21,819 nucleotides of DNA from a virus. The translations under genes were made by a program, and so were the position numbers. The notes beneath the pieces are model-generated. The model had not been told where the DNA came from and ran no database searches. It saw nothing but the letters and a program-made list of their open reading frames with translations. Every line of letters begins with the position of its first letter. The stretch's first letter is position 1. This document shows, in pieces, positions 1-6,506 of this stretch. The DNA is taken from the IMG/VR virus record IMGVR_UViG_3300037961_005038, positions 1 to 21,819 of that record; one strand, written 5' to 3'.

Positions 1-1
1 T

Positions 2-91
2 GAACTGTTAGAGTTAGAAAATGGAGAGAAAGTGAATGAGGTTTATGTCGAAAACCTCGGGGAGTATAAGACAAAAAACAAACGCAAATGA
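2..91 (+). CDS. 3' end of an upstream hypothetical gene (partial)
   Basis: An open frame enters from the left edge and ends at TGA 89-91, giving a 29-residue charged C-terminal tail that ends in a lysine/arginine-rich stretch (KTKNKRK). The stop overlaps the ATG of the next gene as ATGA, the usual sign of translational coupling in a compact phage operon, which supports this frame being coding. The product cannot be identified from so short a piece. Its last part (38-64) carries GAGGTTTATG and CTCGGGGAG, which resemble the inverted repeat at 1881-1911. Confidence 0.6.
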   Translation, partial: ELLELENGEKVNEVYVENLGEYKTKNKRK

Positions 92-825
92 TTCAGATTC
101 GTTGTTATGATCAGGGGCGAGATGATGCTATCATCGAACCAGAAAAGTATCAAAACTTTTATATTGAATATGATCAAATCGTCCCCGATAAAATTGCATC
201 ATACTGTTTTAATTTGTTTAAGACCGATGTAGATAAATTGTATCTACGTTCGAGAAAAGAATTAAAGAGAAAATGCAAACATCGAACTGAATTAACTAAA
301 CTGACTGTGTTACATTCTCAACTGAAAGAACATGGTCGATTTGCTACACCAGTTTTCTTTAATCCGTATTCACGACATTATCATCCCGATAAACCTTGGG
401 CACATGTAGTAGGAAACGGTCGCATGTTAATTTCATCTAACTATGCACCTAATACGCCATTTGACTTTGTTCATTATACAGAAGATTATGGTGATAAAAA
501 TGTTATTGAAAGATTAGTAGATGAGTTAGGTAAGAGACAAGAAAGGAAAGATTATTGCCTAGTGAATTGTTTAATGGATAGAGAGAAAGATGTATATTAC
601 GCTAATACTGTAGAGTTCTATTCTGATGGGAAAGATCATAGTTGCTATAGTCATAATGCAGGGAGTTGGTTAAGAGAAGTCGAGTTACAGTTAGAGTCAG
701 TCAGTGATGCAATCATTGAGTTAATAACAACAATGCCTCGAACATGTGATGATGACTATAGAGCAATCCTCAATGAGATTGTCTCTCTTCCTTATACTCT
801 ACACAGCGAGGTTTTATACACTTAA
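88..825 (+). CDS. hypothetical protein, 245 aa
   Basis: I do not recognise this family. The start ATG overlaps the stop of the preceding gene (ATGA, 88-91), which fixes the start and suggests coupled translation; no Shine-Dalgarno sequence is visible. The protein is soluble-looking, without signal peptide or membrane segments, and rich in Tyr, His, Asp and Arg. A basic patch (residues about 53-66, R/K-rich) precedes a central segment with HYHPDKPW and NPYSRHYH, and a C-terminal acidic helical part follows. Arginine codons are mixed (AGA, CGA, CGT). It is the last gene before a 447-base gene-free stretch, so it probably ends a transcription unit of early or middle phage genes. Function unknown. 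Confidence 0.8.
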   Translation: MIQIRCYDQGRDDAIIEPEKYQNFYIEYDQIVPDKIASYCFNLFKTDVDKLYLRSRKELKRKCKHRTELTKLTVLHSQLKEHGRFATPVFFNPYSRHYHPDKPWAHVVGNGRMLISSNYAPNTPFDFVHYTEDYGDKNVIERLVDELGKRQERKDYCLVNCLMDREKDVYYANTVEFYSDGKDHSCYSHNAGSWLREVELQLESVSDAIIELITTMPRTCDDDYRAILNEIVSLPYTLHSEVLYT

Positions 826-1272
826 GAACGTTCAGAGTTGCTCCGAAGGCACTCCGAATATACTGGGGAGTGTATTTAAGAGATTAAAAATAAATGTATT
901 AAAAAACATATATGCGTGATTTATTTCGTTCGTTAAAATGTGCTGAGGACTAGTGATCTTAGCGCGCACGCTATCACAAACTCGCAAAAAAGTCAAGCAC
1001 ATCGACCAAAAAAAGTCACGAGTCTCGCACATAATTACTCCGAGAATCTCCGAGAGTTGCCATAGCTTACTCATACAATGTACAATGACTCTGTGGAGTT
1101 TCAATCAGTCCCCCTAAGTTGCTCAAATGCCTCAGAGTCCTTATCTACCTACCATAGATGAGTTCTAAAGTCAATAGCTCCGAACCAGTTTAATAACCTG
1201 CACAAGGTATCTGGAAAGACCCTCAGAATCGTGTATCTTATAAGAGTCAAAGGAACACCACTTCTCGACCTC
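826..1272. other. gene-free regulatory stretch
   Basis: No convincing gene is present on either strand; the minus-strand frame at 832-1104 lacks codon character and covers repeat and promoter motifs. The stretch holds CTCCGAA at 841-847 and 851-857, and an inverted repeat CACTCC (850-855)/GGAGTG (867-872) enclosing TATACT (859-864). It also has a tandem pair ACTCCGAGA/TCTCCGAGA (1037-1055), a sigma70-like promoter (1057-1086), and CTCCGAA at 1178-1184. A perfect 7-base inverted repeat GACTCTG (1087-1093)/CAGAGTC (1133-1139) lies just after the promoter and could fold in a leader. Confidence 0.55.
1057..1086 (+). promoter_or_regulatory. sigma70-like promoter for the 1273 gene
   Basis: TTGCCA (1057-1062, five of six matches to TTGACA) and TACAAT (1081-1086, five of six to TATAAT) are separated by 18 bases. 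A second TACAAT lies at 1074-1079. The tandem CTCCGAG pair ends two bases upstream of the -35 box. Transcription would start near 1093, leaving a leader of about 180 bases before the gene at 1273. Known cyanomyovirus early genes use host sigma70-type promoters, which fits. No expression data are available here. Confidence 0.5.
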
Positions 1273-1605
1273 ATGCGTAAGATCGAACAACAGATGAATT
1301 CCGCAATCTCTAACAATGAGAATTGGACATCTGGAAATACTGCGGTTTACTTTAACGAGGAAGATCAGGTGTCTATTGTACGTCTTCACGGTAACAAGAT
1401 TGCGGAGATTGGTGACACTTTCATTCGTCTCTTTGACGGTGGTTATCAGTCAAACACCACTAAATCTCGTCTCAATGCAATTCTCTCAGAACACGGAGAT
1501 TGTGGTGATAAAGTGTTTGCGAAGAACTTCGATTGGTTCGTGCAAATGAACACTGTCCAGGGTCTCACTGTTGTACCTTTCTTCTCTTCAATGCGTCTCG
1601 GTTAA
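1273..1605 (+). CDS. conserved cyanophage-type hypothetical protein, 110 aa
   Basis: I recognise the general pattern from memory as a small protein common in marine cyanophages: N-terminal MRKIEQQMNSAI, then NTAVYF, RLHGNKIAEIGD, and the central signature LFDGGYQSNTTKSRLNAIL, followed by NFDWFV. No function is known to me. The protein is compact and soluble with no signal peptide. The frame can be extended to a GTG at 1231 (124 aa), but the ATG at 1273 matches where the family normally begins; neither start has a clear ribosome binding site. All five arginines use CGT, unlike the AGA-rich structural genes, suggesting host-like codon adaptation or high expression. It is probably transcribed from the promoter at 1057-1086. 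Confidence 0.75.
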   Translation: MRKIEQQMNSAISNNENWTSGNTAVYFNEEDQVSIVRLHGNKIAEIGDTFIRLFDGGYQSNTTKSRLNAILSEHGDCGDKVFAKNFDWFVQMNTVQGLTVVPFFSSMRLG

Positions 1606-1641
1606 TTCTCACAAACTCTCCGAACACTTCGCTACTTTCTC

Positions 1642-1866
1642 ATGACCATTTCTGAACTCGGATCTGCTACCAAACTCGACCTCTTGGTTGCTGATACTCA
1701 AGGACAAATTAAGTACACTGTGCTTAAACCTTCCAAACGAGGTGTGAAAGCATTGAGCGGCAAACGTGCGTGGTCCAATGCTGCTCCTAAGGGTTCATTC
1801 ATGCACGGTTCAGTTGCTGGAACTCCTGGGGTCACTAATAACAACAAATGCAATCAAGTTATGTGA
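1642..1866 (+). CDS. small basic hypothetical protein, 74 aa
   Basis: This short frame follows the preceding gene by 36 bases, and a CTCCGAA motif lies in the gap (1618-1624). The product is basic and low in complexity towards its C-terminus (Gly, Ser, Asn, Lys), with no membrane segment. The middle has a KPSKRGVKALSGKRAW segment that could bind nucleic acid, but this is only a charge argument. Codon use (CTC, GGT, CGT) resembles the neighbouring 1273 gene, which supports it being real. I do not recognise the family. Confidence 0.55.
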   Translation: MTISELGSATKLDLLVADTQGQIKYTVLKPSKRGVKALSGKRAWSNAAPKGSFMHGSVAGTPGVTNNNKCNQVM

Positions 1867-1870
1867 GTAG

Positions 1871-1899
1871 TTGACAGAAACTCTCCGAGGGTTTATGAT
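1871..1899 (+). promoter_or_regulatory. strong sigma70-like promoter with inverted repeat over the -10 region
   Basis: TTGACA (1871-1876) is a perfect -35 box and TATGAT (1894-1899) matches five of six -10 positions, with an ideal 17-base spacer. The -10 box lies in the loop of the inverted repeat at 1881-1911, so any protein binding the repeat would sit on the promoter. Transcription would begin near 1906 and run towards the small genes at 2130 and 2266. Confidence 0.6.
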
Positions 1900-1911
1900 A
1901 CTCTCGGGGAG
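1881..1911. repeat. 11-base inverted repeat (operator-like or hairpin)
   Basis: CTCTCCGAGGG (1881-1891) pairs with CTCTCGGGGAG (1901-1911) across a 9-base loop; nine Watson-Crick and two G-T pairs. No T-run follows, so it is a poor intrinsic terminator on the + strand. Its overlap with the promoter at 1871-1899 makes an operator equally plausible. CTCGGGGAG also occurs at 56-64. Confidence 0.55.
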
Positions 1912-1944
1912 CACTGTTTGAGCAGTTAATTCGCGTTCTTATGT

Positions 1945-1987
1945 GTTAGCGCGTGAGCGCGTAACCCCCGTTTTAAAAAACGCTAAC
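1945..1987. repeat. nested inverted repeat
   Basis: Outer arms GTTAGCG (1945-1951) and CGCTAAC (1981-1987) are perfect complements. Between them are two smaller hairpins: CGCG/CGCG around TGAG (1950-1961) and CGTTTT/AAAACG (1969-1982). These compete with the outer arms for a few bases, so alternative folds are possible. Its role is unknown; a transcript-end or processing structure is possible. Confidence 0.45.
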
Positions 1988-2018
1988 TACCCTAACCTAC
2001 AACGAACCCAAATCGCGA

Positions 2019-2026
2019 TCTAAATA
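2019..2026 (+). promoter_or_regulatory. possible late promoter box
   Basis: TCTAAATA matches T4 TATAAATA at seven of eight positions, about 100 bases upstream of the gene at 2130. The mismatch falls in the normally constant part of the NATAAATA consensus, so this is a weak call. Confidence 0.25.
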
Positions 2027-2129
2027 TCACGAAGGTAAAAAAATTTTGCCCAGAAAAATTCCGAGTGCCAGGGTCCGCTCAAAAAACCTGTTGTCTATAT
2101 AACATTTGAGGATGATTGAAGAGTCTACA

Positions 2130-2279
2130 ATGAAACTAGAACTCGACTTCTATGACAAGGAGGTCCTCGTAGATTGTATAGAGTATCGTCTTCAGAACGA
2201 CTTAGAGTTGATCACTAATGATTCACTCAGAGAAGAGATCGAAGACCTACTTACAATTATCGAAGATGAACTTGTATAA
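2130..2279 (+). CDS. small acidic hypothetical protein, 49 aa
   Basis: This short acidic protein begins MKLELDFYDKEVLVDCIEYR and is mostly predicted helix. As I remember it, many marine cyanophages encode close relatives starting in the same way, with no known function. An in-frame ATG at 2112 would add six residues, but the family-like start is 2130. The final 14 bases overlap the next gene, a compact phage arrangement that suggests coupled expression. The acidic composition (about one third Asp/Glu) would suit a small protein that binds a basic partner, which is speculation. Confidence 0.65.
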   Translation: MKLELDFYDKEVLVDCIEYRLQNDLELITNDSLREEIEDLLTIIEDELV

Positions 2280-2436
2280 TATCTTAGTTGACGGTCACGT
2301 AGTTGCTGAGAATGTAACGAAGTGTGATTTACAACATAAGATCGAGATGGTCAGAGCGGCGTGCAATCTTGAATACGATCTAAGGTTTTCCAAGGTTACT
2401 CACGAACTGATAAATAACCCAGAAACCATTGCATGA
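2266..2436 (+). CDS. small hypothetical protein, 56 aa
   Basis: The start chosen is ATG 2266, which overlaps the end of the 2130 gene by 14 bases in another frame; a start at 2218 would lie wholly within that gene and add 16 residues with little protein character. The product begins MNLYNILVDGHVVAEN, which has the look of a short beta-hairpin followed by a helix (CDLQHKIEMVRAAC). I do not know its function. The two overlapping genes probably form a small unit expressed from the promoter at 1871-1899. Confidence 0.6.
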   Translation: MNLYNILVDGHVVAENVTKCDLQHKIEMVRAACNLEYDLRFSKVTHELINNPETIA

Positions 2437-2457
2437 ATTGATTTGTGGTGGTAGAAT
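2429..2457 (+). promoter_or_regulatory. possible sigma70-like promoter for the glycosyltransferase gene
   Basis: TAGAAT (2452-2457, five of six) has a poor -35 TTGCAT (2429-2434, three of six) at 17 bases. GAATTG (2435-2440) and CAATTC (2468-2473) form a 6-base inverted repeat around the -10 box, and ATTGCAAT (2464-2471) is a palindrome. Confidence 0.3.
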
Positions 2458-2480
2458 AACAACATTGCAATTCTAAATTA

Positions 2481-3233
2481 ATGTCTAAAGGATTTACAAT
2501 TAAAGCGAAAGCTCCTGCTGTCAAAAAGAAAGAAGATGAGTTTGATCTTCAAGCAGCCAAGGAGATGATTAAAGGTAAGAACATTGTGTTCTGTCTTCCT
2601 GGTCGTGGAGTATCTTACATCTATTTGAAGAACTTCGTATCACTGTGTTTTGATATTGTACAGAACGGTGGTAGCATTCAAATTTCTCAGGACTATTCGT
2701 CCATGGTTAACTTTGCACGGTGTAAAGTACTAGGTGCGAATGTTCTCCGTGGTCCGAAGCAGATTCCTTGGGATGGTAAACTGAAATATGATTATCAACT
2801 TTGGATTGACTCTGATATTGTTTTTAACACTGAGTCTTTCTATCGTCTGATTGCAATGGACAAAGATATTGCAGCAGGTTGGTATATGACTGAAGATGGG
2901 AACACCACTTCCGTTGCTCACTGGCTTGAAGAAGATGACTTCAAGAACAACGGTGGTGTGATGAATCATGAAACTGGTGAGACCATGAGCAAACGTCGCA
3001 AACCCTTTACAGTTGACTACACTGGTTTTGGATGGGTTCTGATTAAGAACGGCGTCTTTGAGAACTTGGAGTATCCTTGGTTTGCTCCGAAGATGCAGGT
3101 GTTTGACTCTGGTGAAGTTCAAGACATGTGCGGTGAGGACGTATCTTTCTGTCTTGATGCGAAAGAGAAGGGCTTCGAGATCTGGTGTGATCCGAAGATC
3201 CGTGTGGGTCATGAGAAGACTCGTATTCTTTGA
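2481..3233 (+). CDS. GT-A fold glycosyltransferase-like protein, 250 aa
   Basis: The predicted enzyme transfers a sugar from a nucleotide-sugar donor. A lysine-rich N-terminal tail (residues 1-20) precedes a beta-strand NIVFCLPGRG (34-43), the usual start of a GT-A nucleotide-binding fold. LWIDSD with D110-S111-D112 is the metal-binding DxD motif. The acceptor side shows TGFGWVLIKNGVFE (181-194), then GEDVSFC (218-224) with the likely catalytic acidic pair, and H244 near the C-terminus, an order typical of GT2-like enzymes in phages. Every arginine codon is CGN, none AGA, unlike the structural genes downstream. The acceptor is unknown: it may be phage DNA, a virion protein or a host surface sugar. 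Assignment of fold is fairly firm, substrate is not. Confidence 0.8.
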   Translation: MSKGFTIKAKAPAVKKKEDEFDLQAAKEMIKGKNIVFCLPGRGVSYIYLKNFVSLCFDIVQNGGSIQISQDYSSMVNFARCKVLGANVLRGPKQIPWDGKLKYDYQLWIDSDIVFNTESFYRLIAMDKDIAAGWYMTEDGNTTSVAHWLEEDDFKNNGGVMNHETGETMSKRRKPFTVDYTGFGWVLIKNGVFENLEYPWFAPKMQVFDSGEVQDMCGEDVSFCLDAKEKGFEIWCDPKIRVGHEKTRIL

Positions 3234-3243
3234 TAAAAAAATC

Positions 3244-3261
3244 GGCGCGTTTCGGCGCGTC
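3244..3261. terminator. GC-rich hairpin, terminator-like on the minus strand
   Basis: GGCGCG (3244-3249) pairs with CGCGTC (3256-3261, one G-T pair) around a 6-base loop, 11 bases after the glycosyltransferase stop. Seven A's precede it (3235-3241) and five follow. Read on the minus strand, the hairpin is followed by seven T's, a classical intrinsic terminator; on the + strand the tract is A, so it might rather block or protect the transcript end. No minus-strand gene is visible nearby. Confidence 0.5.
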
Positions 3262-3306
3262 AAAAACCGCAAAAAAATCGCAAACGTATTCTAAGGTATT
3301 TTAATT

Positions 3307-3456
3307 ATGGCAGTTAAGTCGAAAGTGGGTCTGGTGAAAGATGGTTTCATGCCTGGGAAGCCTAAAAAGACTCGTCAAGGATCGAGTCAACACACGAAAC
3401 TTTCAGCAACCTCTCGTAATAGTAAGAAAAAGGCATACAGAGGTCAAGGTCGATAA
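3307..3456 (+). CDS. tiny basic conserved cyanophage-type protein, 49 aa
   Basis: The protein is very basic (Lys/Arg near 30 percent) and begins MAVKSKVGLVKDGFMPGKPK, ending AYRGQGR. I recognise this pattern from memory as a short protein repeated across marine T4-like cyanophages, function unknown. It is likely disordered and could bind nucleic acid or an acidic protein. The stop TAA (3454-3456) lies inside the late promoter box GATAAATA at 3452-3459, so the next unit starts exactly where this gene ends. Confidence 0.7.
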   Translation: MAVKSKVGLVKDGFMPGKPKKTRQGSSQHTKLSATSRNSKKKAYRGQGR

Positions 3457-3459
3457 ATA
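3452..3459 (+). promoter_or_regulatory. T4-type late promoter
   Basis: GATAAATA fits the NATAAATA late box described for T4-like cyanophages (TATAAATA in T4). It lies 27 bases upstream of the ATG at 3486 and would start transcription near 3467, driving the small genes and probably the baseplate genes after them. It needs the phage late sigma factor gp55 and clamp gp45, which are not in this window. Confidence 0.65.
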
Positions 3460-3485
3460 CCTGTAACGTATTTTAAAGGTGTATC

Positions 3486-3629
3486 ATGGGAGCAAAAGGA
3501 CCCAATCCAGGAGATAACCCACCAGCAACTCCTGAAGGTACTTTGGATGCAAAGTATGATGTTGCATCTAATGCAAAGGCACGTTCTCAAACTAAGAAGA
3601 ACACTGCATCACCATTAGCAGCAGGTTGA
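3486..3629 (+). CDS. tiny hypothetical protein, 47 aa
   Basis: The product is rich in Gly, Pro, Asn and Ala, begins MGAKGPNPGDNPP and ends SPLAAG, and is probably unstructured. It sits directly behind a late promoter, which suggests a small virion or assembly-related protein, but no function is known to me. The stop TGA (3627-3629) is three bases before the next ATG, consistent with coupled translation. Its small size makes it easy to miss in automatic annotation. Confidence 0.6.
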   Translation: MGAKGPNPGDNPPATPEGTLDAKYDVASNAKARSQTKKNTASPLAAG

Positions 3630-3632
3630 TTT

Positions 3633-4157
3633 ATGTCTGAACGTGAATCTTATGTCCAGGAATGGATAGAACAAGTTTCTAAAAAACATAAAGAACTTGG
3701 TGGTTTTGCCATTTGTCCATATGCATCTGGATCAGATACCTTAATTAAAGACACTCCGATTGATGATATCGTGCCCGAACCAGGGTATGATGTCATCCTT
3801 TTTATTGTTGAAGATTTTTGGAAACCTGCGAAAATTAGAAAGTGGGTTGCAAAATATAACGAAGAGTATCCACTCTATTGGTTTGTGGAAGACTTAGCGT
3901 GTGAAAATACATACATTAACGGAGTTAAAACAAATAATCCTCAACTTAATTTGATACTGTGTCAATCAAGAAGAAAGATTGCACAAATGCGTAAAAAATT
4001 AGCAAAAACTGACTACTACAATTATTGGAGCGAAGAATATTTGAACGAAGTTTTAGGTGATGACAAGAAATTGATACAAAAAATCAAAAGTCCATGTCCA
4101 TATCAAGCAAAAAAAGAGTTAATTGATGAAGTACTAGACTACGAATCTTCCAAATAG
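3633..4157 (+). CDS. hypothetical protein, 174 aa
   Basis: The start codon lies three bases after the previous stop. An N-terminal helix (YVQEWIEQV) leads to GGFAICPYA (residues 24-32), reminiscent of the W-x-x-x-V...L-CP-F/Y-A opening of DUF1415 proteins, though this is a faint likeness. A beta-strand VILFIVEDFW (54-63) and a K/R-rich helical region follow. Several cysteines (C28, C89, C110, C154) are present but not in a metal-finger spacing. No signal peptide or membrane segment is seen. It precedes gp25 by 37 bases and would be co-expressed with baseplate genes, so a tail-assembly role is possible. Function not identified. Confidence 0.7.
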   Translation: MSERESYVQEWIEQVSKKHKELGGFAICPYASGSDTLIKDTPIDDIVPEPGYDVILFIVEDFWKPAKIRKWVAKYNEEYPLYWFVEDLACENTYINGVKTNNPQLNLILCQSRRKIAQMRKKLAKTDYYNYWSEEYLNEVLGDDKKLIQKIKSPCPYQAKKELIDEVLDYESSK

Positions 4158-4194
4158 TCTTATACATATATTAAGTACCTCTTGTTTGCACTAA

Positions 4195-4635
4195 ATGGCC
4201 TTAGAAATTAGGGACATAGACAATTCTTCATTTAGATACAGGAAGACTTCTCGTAGTTTTAAGGATATTAGCCTTACTTTTGCGAAAAATCCTGTCACAA
4301 ATGATATATTGCCTATTAAAAATGAAGATGCAATCAAGAAGTCGGTGATGAATCTAGTTAAAACTAGATTAGGTGAGCGTTTTTTTAACGATTTATTAGG
4401 TACTAGACTCGAAGACAGTCTTTTTGAGGTAGGAACTTCGTCACTCATCTACTCTTTGGAGAGTGAAATTGCTATTTTATTAGAAAACTTTGAACCAAGG
4501 ATCAACAATACCAAGGTTTTTGGTGAATATCAAGATGAATCCAACGATTTACTCCTTAGAATAACATATGATATTGTTGGATTACCAATTCCAACCCAAG
4601 AAATCGAATTTATCTTAGAACCCACTAGAATCTAA
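4195..4635 (+). CDS. 25: baseplate wedge protein gp25-like
   Basis: The 146-aa protein matches the size of gp25/W-family wedge proteins (about 130-145 aa). These form part of the baseplate wedge core that locks gp6 and the sheath-starting complex in T4-like and P2-like tails. The diagnostic region is KTRLGERFFNDLLGTRLEDS (56-75), which carries the R-x-G-E and LG-x-x-LE-D-x-LF pattern. A helical segment and a C-terminal beta-strand EIEFILEP follow. The stop overlaps the gp6 start as TAATG (4633-4637), so translation of the two partners is coupled, as expected for wedge subunits needed in fixed ratio. No own promoter box is visible just upstream. Confidence 0.93.
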   Translation: MALEIRDIDNSSFRYRKTSRSFKDISLTFAKNPVTNDILPIKNEDAIKKSVMNLVKTRLGERFFNDLLGTRLEDSLFEVGTSSLIYSLESEIAILLENFEPRINNTKVFGEYQDESNDLLLRITYDIVGLPIPTQEIEFILEPTRI

Positions 4636-6506
4636 TGTCCTTCAATCAGTTTACTAACTTAGATTTTAACGATCTAAGGACTCAAATTAAAGACTACCTT
4701 AGATCCAGTAGCGATTTTAGTGATTTTGACTTTGAAGGATCTAATTTTTCGGTCTTAATTGACCTATTAGCGTACAACTCATACATCACTGCGTTCAATA
4801 CGAACATGACAGTGAATGAGGTGTTCCTTGATAGTGCAACATTGAGAGAAAATGTTGTTGCACTCGCTAGAAATATCGGATATACCCCAAGATCAGTCAG
4901 AGCAGCACGTGCTAAAGTGTCTTTTAACGTCATTTTGACCGATAGTACCGACGTTAGAACAGTTACTCTTCAAGCCGGACAAGTTGCACAGGGTGCTTTG
5001 ACTCAAAGTAGCTATATTTACTCGATTCCTGAAGATTATACTGCTCAAGTTGATAGTCAAGGGGAAGCTCTTTTCGGAGATCTTGAAATTTATGAAGGAA
5101 TTTTCGTAAAAAACACTTTTACTGTTGATGCATCTACTCCTAATCAGAGATTTATTCTTCCAAATGCAAATATTGACACTACAACAGTAAGAGTTAAGGT
5201 AAAAACTAACGTAACTGAACAATATAGCGTTTTTGAGAACGTTTTGAACGTTGATGCGAACTCAAGACTGTTTTTATTGCAAGAAATTTCCGATCAAAAG
5301 TATGAAGTTCGTTTTGGTGATGGAATTTTAGGTAAAAAACCAACTCCAGGGTCAATTATTGAAGTTTCTTACATTGTAAGTAACGGTAGAGAAGGAAATG
5401 GAGCTCAAAATTTCACTTTTTCGGGAATTTTGAAGGATAATAACGTAAATCCCATTACAACTGGAATTTCTCTTCTAACAACTATCTCTGCCGCTCAAAA
5501 TGGTGATAATATTGAAGATTTAGACTCCATCAAATATCTGGCACCTCGTGTATACTCCTCACAGCTACGTGCCGTGACTGCCAGTGACTATAAAGGACTC
5601 ATTCCATACATTTACACCAACGTAGACTCTGTAACCGCCTACGGGGGTGAAGAGTTGGATCCACCAGAATACGGAAAAGTCTTTATTTCCATTAAACCTA
5701 GGGGTGCGAATACACTTTCTCAACTTACGAAAGAAGAAATTGAAAGATCTTTAAAACAATACTCAATTGCTGGTATTAAACCAGAATTGATTGATCTCAA
5801 ATATCTTTTTGTTGAATTTGATACCACTGTTTATTATAATAAGAACCAAACTTCTGATGTTTCTGAAATTAGAACAAAAGTACTTAATACATTGACTAAT
5901 TACGCTTCTTCTAGCGATACTAATAACTTTGGTGGAAGAGTTAAGTATTCTAAGATCAATGCATTAGTAGATGATACGGACAGTGCAATTACTTCTAATA
6001 TTACAAAAGTAAAAATGCGTAGAGATGTGTCTCCCGCATTTAATACGTTCTCAACATATGAAATTTGTTTTGGAAATAGAGTTTACGTTAAAAAAGATGG
6101 ATATTCTATCAAATCTTCTGGATTTAAAATATCTGGAGTGAATGATACTCTTTATATGGGTGATATTGCAAATGATGATAGTTCTGGAAGAGTATTCTTC
6201 TTCAAACTAGTTAATAACAATCCATCTATTGTAAAAACTAACGCAGGAACAATTGATTACGTTAAAGGAGAAATTCTTCTTGATGTTGTAAATATAACAT
6301 CTACTGCGTTAAATAATAATGTTATTGAAGTTCAGGCAATTCCTGAGTCGAATGATGTTATTGGATTGAAAGACTTATATCTCCAAATTGACGTTGGCAA
6401 TTCTGTGGTAAATACAGTGGAGGATACTATTACCTCTGGCGAGAATACTGCTGCAACATTGTTTGTACCTACATCTAGTTACCTAAACGGAAAGTTCACA
6501 AGATAA
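4635..6506 (+). CDS. 6: baseplate wedge protein gp6-like (baseplate J family)
   Basis: The 623-aa protein is near the size of T4 gp6 (660 aa), the wedge subunit whose dimers form the iris ring of the baseplate. The N-terminus (FTNLDFNDLRTQIKDYLRSS) is followed by AYNSYITAFNTNMTVNEVFL (48-67), characteristic of gp6/J proteins. RFGDGILGKKP...G...YIVSNGREGNG (about 226-258) is the typical baseplate J signature. The C-terminal third is beta-rich. The position between gp25 and a gp7-like gene is the standard wedge order. A one-base gap separates its stop from the next ATG (6508), suggesting coupled translation. Confidence 0.93.
   Translation: MSFNQFTNLDFNDLRTQIKDYLRSSSDFSDFDFEGSNFSVLIDLLAYNSYITAFNTNMTVNEVFLDSATLRENVVALARNIGYTPRSVRAARAKVSFNVILTDSTDVRTVTLQAGQVAQGALTQSSYIYSIPEDYTAQVDSQGEALFGDLEIYEGIFVKNTFTVDASTPNQRFILPNANIDTTTVRVKVKTNVTEQYSVFENVLNVDANSRLFLLQEISDQKYEVRFGDGILGKKPTPGSIIEVSYIVSNGREGNGAQNFTFSGILKDNNVNPITTGISLLTTISAAQNGDNIEDLDSIKYLAPRVYSSQLRAVTASDYKGLIPYIYTNVDSVTAYGGEELDPPEYGKVFISIKPRGANTLSQLTKEEIERSLKQYSIAGIKPELIDLKYLFVEFDTTVYYNKNQTSDVSEIRTKVLNTLTNYASSSDTNNFGGRVKYSKINALVDDTDSAITSNITKVKMRRDVSPAFNTFSTYEICFGNRVYVKKDGYSIKSSGFKISGVNDTLYMGDIANDDSSGRVFFFKLVNNNPSIVKTNAGTIDYVKGEILLDVVNITSTALNNNVIEVQAIPESNDVIGLKDLYLQIDVGNSVVNTVEDTITSGENTAATLFVPTSSYLNGKFTR

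Follow-up and report, generated by a model that had tools for sequence, protein, structure and literature searches.

Predicted sigma-70-type promoters with putative transcript-start hairpins in an intergenic region of a marine T4-like cyanophage

The hairpins of the T4 genes e, soc and 49 depend on the transcription start site: both arms are present in the read-through RNA, and the left arm is missing from the RNA started at the promoter. Promoters of the virion RNA polymerase of phage N4 carry a hairpin centred near position -10. The early promoters of the cyanophages S-PM2 and Syn9 are of the host sigma-70 type, with the hexamers TTGACA and TATAAT and a 17-nt spacer, and the two promoters described below, P1 and P2, resemble this class. 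Neither a fixed, covarying start hairpin nor a hairpin over the -10 box was described for the S-PM2 and Syn9 promoters in the literature searched. Cyanomyoviruses lack MotA/AsiA and Alt/Mod, and their early transcription by the unmodified host polymerase is the accepted view; the timing of early and middle genes in T4-like cyanophages without MotA/AsiA is described as unclear (PMC2984593). No description of the promoter modules reported here was found in the literature searched; the main Syn9 transcriptome and genome papers lay outside its scope, and the novelty of the modules is provisional.

The window, the whole stretch of 21,819 nt that was analysed (IMG/VR virus record IMGVR_UViG_3300037961_005038), is a piece of the genome of a marine T4-like cyanophage (Kyanoviridae). 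Six IMG/VR contigs are most closely related to it, among them the 239-kb near-genome G001 (locus L005). The first conserved gene 3' of P1 is a Kyano_Gp96 gene (PF23790; 1273-1605, + strand), and the gene upstream of the P2 hairpin lies at 1642-1866. A glycosyltransferase-like gene (2481-3233) matches an annotated glycosyltransferase of Synechococcus phage S-SCSM2R; baseplate genes follow farther downstream, in the same gene order as in that phage. Rfam searches yielded one sub-threshold chance match in window positions 1-4000 and zero family matches at gathering thresholds in six related loci. The region as a whole is best explained, with a probability of about 0.55, by host sigma-70 promoters whose transcripts would begin with a 5' hairpin, P2 also overlapping a hairpin of the read-through RNA.

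Promoter P2 (1871-1899, +) consists of TTGACA (1871-1876), a 17-nt spacer and TATGAT (1894-1899). With 11 of 12 sigma-70 positions matched it is the best promoter match in window positions 1-6000, and a hairpin is placed exactly within it. The left arm CTCTCCGAGGGT (1881-1892, +) lies in the promoter spacer, the 7-nt loop TTATGAT (1893-1899, +) is the -10 hexamer plus one T, and the right arm ACTCTCGGGGAG (1900-1911, +) follows directly. As an inverted repeat the site reads CTCTCCGAG-13-CTCGGGGAG. Only three sites in the window (five hits, three of them one site) combine G+C-rich arms of at least 9 bp with no more than one mismatch; this is one of them, and its region has no other long G+C-rich inverted repeat; dinucleotide shuffles of the window gave 0-1 such repeats each, except for one with 6. 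For the RNA a hairpin of 12 bp is predicted, with a folding energy of -25 kcal/mol and a z-score of -4.6. The original prediction that arms enclose TATGAT at this place is thus borne out, and the arrangement is non-random.

The sequence of 1881-1911 is identical in close relatives, and promoter and hairpin are kept together in 13 IMG/VR contigs. Where the neighbouring gene has diverged (L009), the element differs at only one of 40 bases, which turns TATGAT into a perfect TATAAT and the promoter into a 12/12 match. In the window the arms are CTCTCC/GGGGAG, in L091 they are CTCTCC/GGAGAG, and L089, L090, L093, L098 and L101 share CCCTCC/GGAGGG; the folds range between -17 and -25 kcal/mol, with z-scores between -4.1 and -6.6. 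In an alignment of eight distinct rows, 95.8% of the base-pair cells pair; one pair is fully compensatory (U-A to C-G), four show wobble changes, and two are broken, only in the L089/L098 type. The covariation apparent at P2 is modest, with one fully compensatory pair behind it. At the equivalent place S-SCSM2R keeps the repeat, as 10 perfect base pairs around a 25-nt loop, with weak promoter hexamers. BLAST of 1860-1930 against named phages gave zero matches, so the evidence for P2 comes from metagenomic contigs and S-SCSM2R. Altered arms with largely kept pairing, G-U pairs and a changed loop length are more readily explained by RNA pairing than by a protein operator of fixed sequence.

Chance placement of G+C-rich arms around an ordinary promoter would be in keeping with the abundance of plain CTCC..GGAG pairs, which are as frequent as expected at random (CTCC-N3..22-GGAG is not rarer than chance, with 4 found against 2.2 expected). 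For 1881-1911 this explanation is disfavoured and very improbable, since 13 contigs retain the hairpin, some covariation is seen and z is about -5. The special feature is the long 1881-1911 stem, not plain CTCC..GGAG pairs. Two further sites had been grouped with it. At 850-872 (+) the arms CACTCC/GGAGTG (850-855/867-872) exist as claimed, 25 nt after the stop codon of the upstream gene, where they may form a weak 3'-end hairpin; the fold is unremarkable (z -1.2), and the arrangement is possibly due to chance. The TATACT between these arms is not credible as a -10 box: only TTGCTC lies 15 nt upstream, and L004 reads TACGCT there. The site was rejected as a promoter since it has no well-spaced -35 box and its -10 box is mutated in the relative L004. 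The look-alike at 38-64 (+), said to be a related arrangement, falls within a reading frame (..EVYVENLGEYKT..) cut by the start of the window, whose homologue is an annotated CDS in S-SCSM2R. Its likeness to 1887-1911 is therefore likely coincidental, and it stands outside the system.

P2 resembles the T4 gene e, soc and 49 hairpins in that the read-through RNA would have both arms and the promoter RNA would lack the left one. It differs from them in that the promoter is of the sigma-70 type and not a late one, and no start codon is found close to the GGAG arm. The frame opened by the nearest ATG (1941) is 2 codons long, and among reading frames starting 5-12 nt after the GGAG there is none but TTG-AGC-AGT-TAA. 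A hairpin of the T4 gene e type, sequestering the ribosome-binding site of the following gene, was accordingly discarded as a candidate for P2. The position of the hairpin, centred near -10, is that of the N4 virion RNA polymerase promoters; unlike these, P2 has full sigma-70 hexamers and a much longer stem, and no such polymerase was seen in the window. In a P2-started RNA the right arm ACTCTCGGGGAG can fold a weak local 5' hairpin, CUCU-CGG-GGAG (-1.8 kcal/mol), which is perfect in L091 (ACUCU-UGG-AGAGU). Because this local hairpin can form, the GGAG arm has two possible partners: the upstream CTCTCC when transcription reads through, and the nearby CUCU in RNA started at P2. The choice between them might act as a switch.

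The P2 hairpin might instead be an intrinsic terminator of the upstream gene, perhaps a degenerate one, that shares its DNA with the next promoter by chance. This is a tentative alternative, though the most serious one. The stem is stable and G+C-rich as in an intrinsic terminator (12 bp, -25 kcal/mol), and UACUUUU follows the same hairpin in L090, L091, L098 and L101. The window continues with CACTGTTTG and has no U-tract, as also L009 and L089 have none, so that its hairpin is no canonical terminator. Intrinsic terminators do overlap promoters in six cyanophage genomes, in one preferred geometry with the -35 box in the stem-loop and the U-tract filling the spacer (for example P-SSM2 68535 CCCCCTTCACAGGGGGTTTTTTATTGGTATAAT and S-ShM2 45743 GGATCCTTGACAGGATCCTTTTTTTGTGTCATACT; also P-SSM2 66942 and S-SCSM2R 138600). 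The end of the terminator stem falls 10-19 nt downstream of the first base of the -35 box in 16 cases, against about 2 per neighbouring bin, and this peak, which speaks for a terminator at P2, is limited to terminators with a U-tract. In these fusions one hairpin serves both the upstream 3' end and the downstream promoter, as it would at P2. They differ from P2, where the -10 and not the -35 box lies in the loop and a U-tract is missing, and the geometry of P2 is not enriched in general. The annotation of cyanophage operons has to allow for this sharing of DNA between terminators and promoters.

Promoter P1 (1057-1086, +) consists of TTGCCA (1057-1062), an 18-nt spacer and TACAAT (1081-1086). 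In the window it matches only 10/12 positions; the equivalent promoters of S-SCSM2R and Sf-FS3 match 11-12/12. The -10 box is followed by ACTCTGTGGAGTTTCA (1088-1103, +), which is predicted to form the 5' hairpin (G)ACUC-UGUG-GAGU(U). This start motif, ACTCTG..GRGTT directly 3' of the -10 box (within 0-2 nt of it, as at P1), is shared among promoters. G001 holds four copies of the 16-mer in 239 kb, and all four lie directly behind a -10 box: at P1, before gp55 (opposite strand), before a gene assigned by homology with S-SCSM2R as a SegE-type GIY-YIG endonuclease gene, and at one more site (opposite strand). A sigma-70 promoter followed by ACTCTG..GRGTTYA occurs four times in S-SCSM2R, with ACTCTG at 54058, 178495, 121976 and 37700, four times in Sf-FS3, three times in S-CAM9 and once each in P-SSM2 and S-SSM7; the pattern was searched for and is absent in Syn9, S-PM2 and S-ShM2. 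Directly behind promoters of at least 10/12, six genomes have 14 copies of ACTCTG where about 0.9 would be expected, and T4 has 0. P2 is without the exact motif and has only ACTCTC..GGAG. Promoters in general show no excess of 5'-terminal hairpins and none of strong hairpins over the hexamers, with coverage over the -35 and -10 boxes at background, so the start-hairpin promoters are a subclass and no rule. Two general rules, that cyanophage promoters sit in hairpins and that their transcripts start with 5'-terminal hairpins, were rejected on these grounds. A leader element, ..TATAAGAGTCAAAGGAACACCACT, was also seen before several small genes of the same phage (window 1199-1262; L002 280-330, 940-990 and 3390-3450).

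The copy of the module beside gp55 is conserved. In S-SCSM2R, P-SSM2 and S-SSM7 it lies between an Sm-like gene (PF16243) and gp55 and is directed backwards, into the Sm-like gene at its 3' end (antisense; L398:2150-2258, which is S-SCSM2R 121949-122057; also upstream of gp55 in L411-L490). Eighty gp55 loci, 64 of them non-redundant, were gathered by gp55 protein similarity and not by motif, and the best match in each upstream stretch was taken as the promoter. An antisense promoter of at least 10/12 is found within 200 nt of gp55 in 64/64 non-redundant loci, against 8% in shuffles, and one of at least 11/12 in 49/64, against 0.5%. The start hairpins include AACUCU-GUC-AGGGUU, AACAGU-GUC-GCUGUU, AACCGU-GUG-GCGGUU and AACUUU-GUC-GAAGUU; the stems are rewritten and the pairing is kept. 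Their covariation score of 0.319, against 0.211 in shuffles, was reached in 0/500 of these and drops when the pairing partners are slid; some members are outside the common register and the counts are inflated by related sequences. The alignment thus gives strong covariation for the antisense start hairpin. A sense promoter of at least 11/12 was also seen before gp55 in 43/64 loci. The CfrI antisense RNA of S-PM2 and protective cyanophage antisense RNAs (PMC2984593, PMC9692554) are conceptually similar to what this promoter would make. Its putative target, an Sm-like gene, differs from theirs. Antisense RNAs are reported to protect phage transcripts from RNase E in another cyanophage (PMC9692554), which makes an antisense RNA from the gp55 side plausible.

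A sequence-specific regulator of phage or host had been proposed to control several early promoters through CTCC/GGAG-type sites. A DNA-binding protein of this kind might recognise a promoter dyad, either ACTCTGNCAGAGT at +1 or CTCCGAG/CTCGGGGAG over the -10 box, and switch the promoters together. Tandem CTCCGAG copies (1038/1048; 1038-1054, +) do adjoin P1 on its upstream side and are conserved in close relatives, identical in those that cover the site. CTCCGA is dense in 826-2120, a partly non-coding stretch, with seven copies, all on the + strand, against 0.28 expected. A MarR-type factor is known from a cyanophage (PMC9692554), the start motif is common to four promoters per genome, and its best copies are near-perfect palindromes (S-SSM7 AACTCTGTCAGAGTT). 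Against such a protein, CTCCGA does not track promoters: its 66 copies are spread across G001 (239 kb), three of the four G001 promoters with the shared ACTCTG motif, all except P1, have none nearby, and its association with promoters is not significant in six complete cyanophage genomes. The spacing of the half-sites at P2 is not fixed (13-nt gap in the window, 25-nt in S-SCSM2R). A G-U-type change is present in most start-motif copies (GGGT in 88/96 copies, which were collected by motif with this position left free), many break the CTGNCAG symmetry, and the stems are rewritten with pairing kept. A dyad-binding protein is on balance unlikely, though conceivable for ACTCTG..GRGTT with its near-palindromic best forms. 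CTCCGA as a genome-wide regulator site was rejected for its scatter in G001 and the missing promoter association in the six genomes, and no support for a single CTCCGA-binding regulator was found in these sequences. The idea that several promoters share one motif holds for P1 through ACTCTG..GRGTT (ACTCTGTGGAGTTTCA) and fails for CTCCGA/GGAG. CTCNGAG palindromes in promoter spacers were considered too and dropped; they occur only at the P1/P2 locus (S-SCSM2R, Sf-FS3), with no genome-wide enrichment.

What several viral RNAs have in common is thus probably a 5' hairpin and not a DNA-binding switch at CTCCGA. Promoter matches, predicted hairpins, their conservation and covariation and the repeated motif are read directly from sequence; that the promoters fire, where and when their RNAs start, that the hairpins form and what they do are inferred. 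The unmodified host sigma-70 polymerase would use P1 and P2, which lie in a long stretch between genes of a cyanomyovirus. Directly 3' of the -10 box the DNA would encode a short stem-loop, clearly at P1 and more weakly at P2, so that the 5' end of the RNA would be a hairpin. The P1 hairpin (ACUC-UGUG-GAGU) would be one copy of a module of strong sigma-70 promoter plus hairpin present at about four promoters per phage, among them the conserved promoter that lies before gp55 in antisense and reads into the Sm-like gene. The start hairpin probably protects or marks RNA 5' ends. At P2 the extra upstream arm would let a read-through RNA fold the 12-bp hairpin, whose loop holds the -10 box. This hairpin would cap or hold back upstream transcription and so set the upstream gene apart from the unit that begins at P2; the P2-started RNA, without the left arm, would escape it. 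A bolder and rather improbable extension is an RNA-level regulon: the common 5' hairpin with its UGU loop would start about four transcripts, including an antisense RNA against the phage Sm-like gene (Hfq-type fold), and the Sm-like protein would bind it and so jointly control its own RNA, the P1-driven genes and others. The covarying start-hairpin module, at about four promoters per genome and fixed in antisense beside the late sigma factor gene gp55, offers a testable handle on early and middle gene timing in cyanophages.

P1 and P2 could also belong to a replication origin, at which a transcript would prime replication or form an R-loop, as happens at T4 origins, and the repeats would be origin structures. 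The region ends in a conserved non-coding element (CGCTAACTACCCTAACCTACAACGAACCC; 1969-2025, +) in the P2 leader, single-copy in each genome where it was found, DnaA-box clusters lie upstream of it in 16/47 related loci, and a single theta origin is predicted for Syn9 (PMC2984593). The window has no DnaA box upstream of the element, the GC-skew extremes are not consistently at the P1/P2 region, leaving origin support inconsistent, and P1-type modules also stand at gp55 and SegE; an origin is accordingly quite unlikely as the explanation of the promoters and repeats. The element (CGCTAACTACCCTAACCTACAACGAACC..) recurs at S-SCSM2R 54833, P-SSM2 69099 and Syn9 53502 and in at least 86 IMG/VR stretches, and is absent from T4. 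The clusters consist of TTTTCCACA, the cyanobacterial-type DnaA box, and lie 0.3-2.5 kb upstream of the element (e.g. S-ShM2 52811-53084, Syn9 52565-52597), as a possible replication origin; the box occurs there at 0.49 per kb, about 19 times the 0.026 per kb of the remainder of these loci. A conserved intergenic hairpin at window 936-1001 (GTGATCTTAGCGCGCACGCTATCACAAACTC) adjoins DnaA boxes in AG-345-O18 (L111). A P2-like hairpin without TTGACA was also seen in L092 (2500-2900) and L103 (10330-10700), surrounded by repeats of the motifs ACCTTATGGGGGGTT and TATAACGAAC and by TTTTCCACA boxes.
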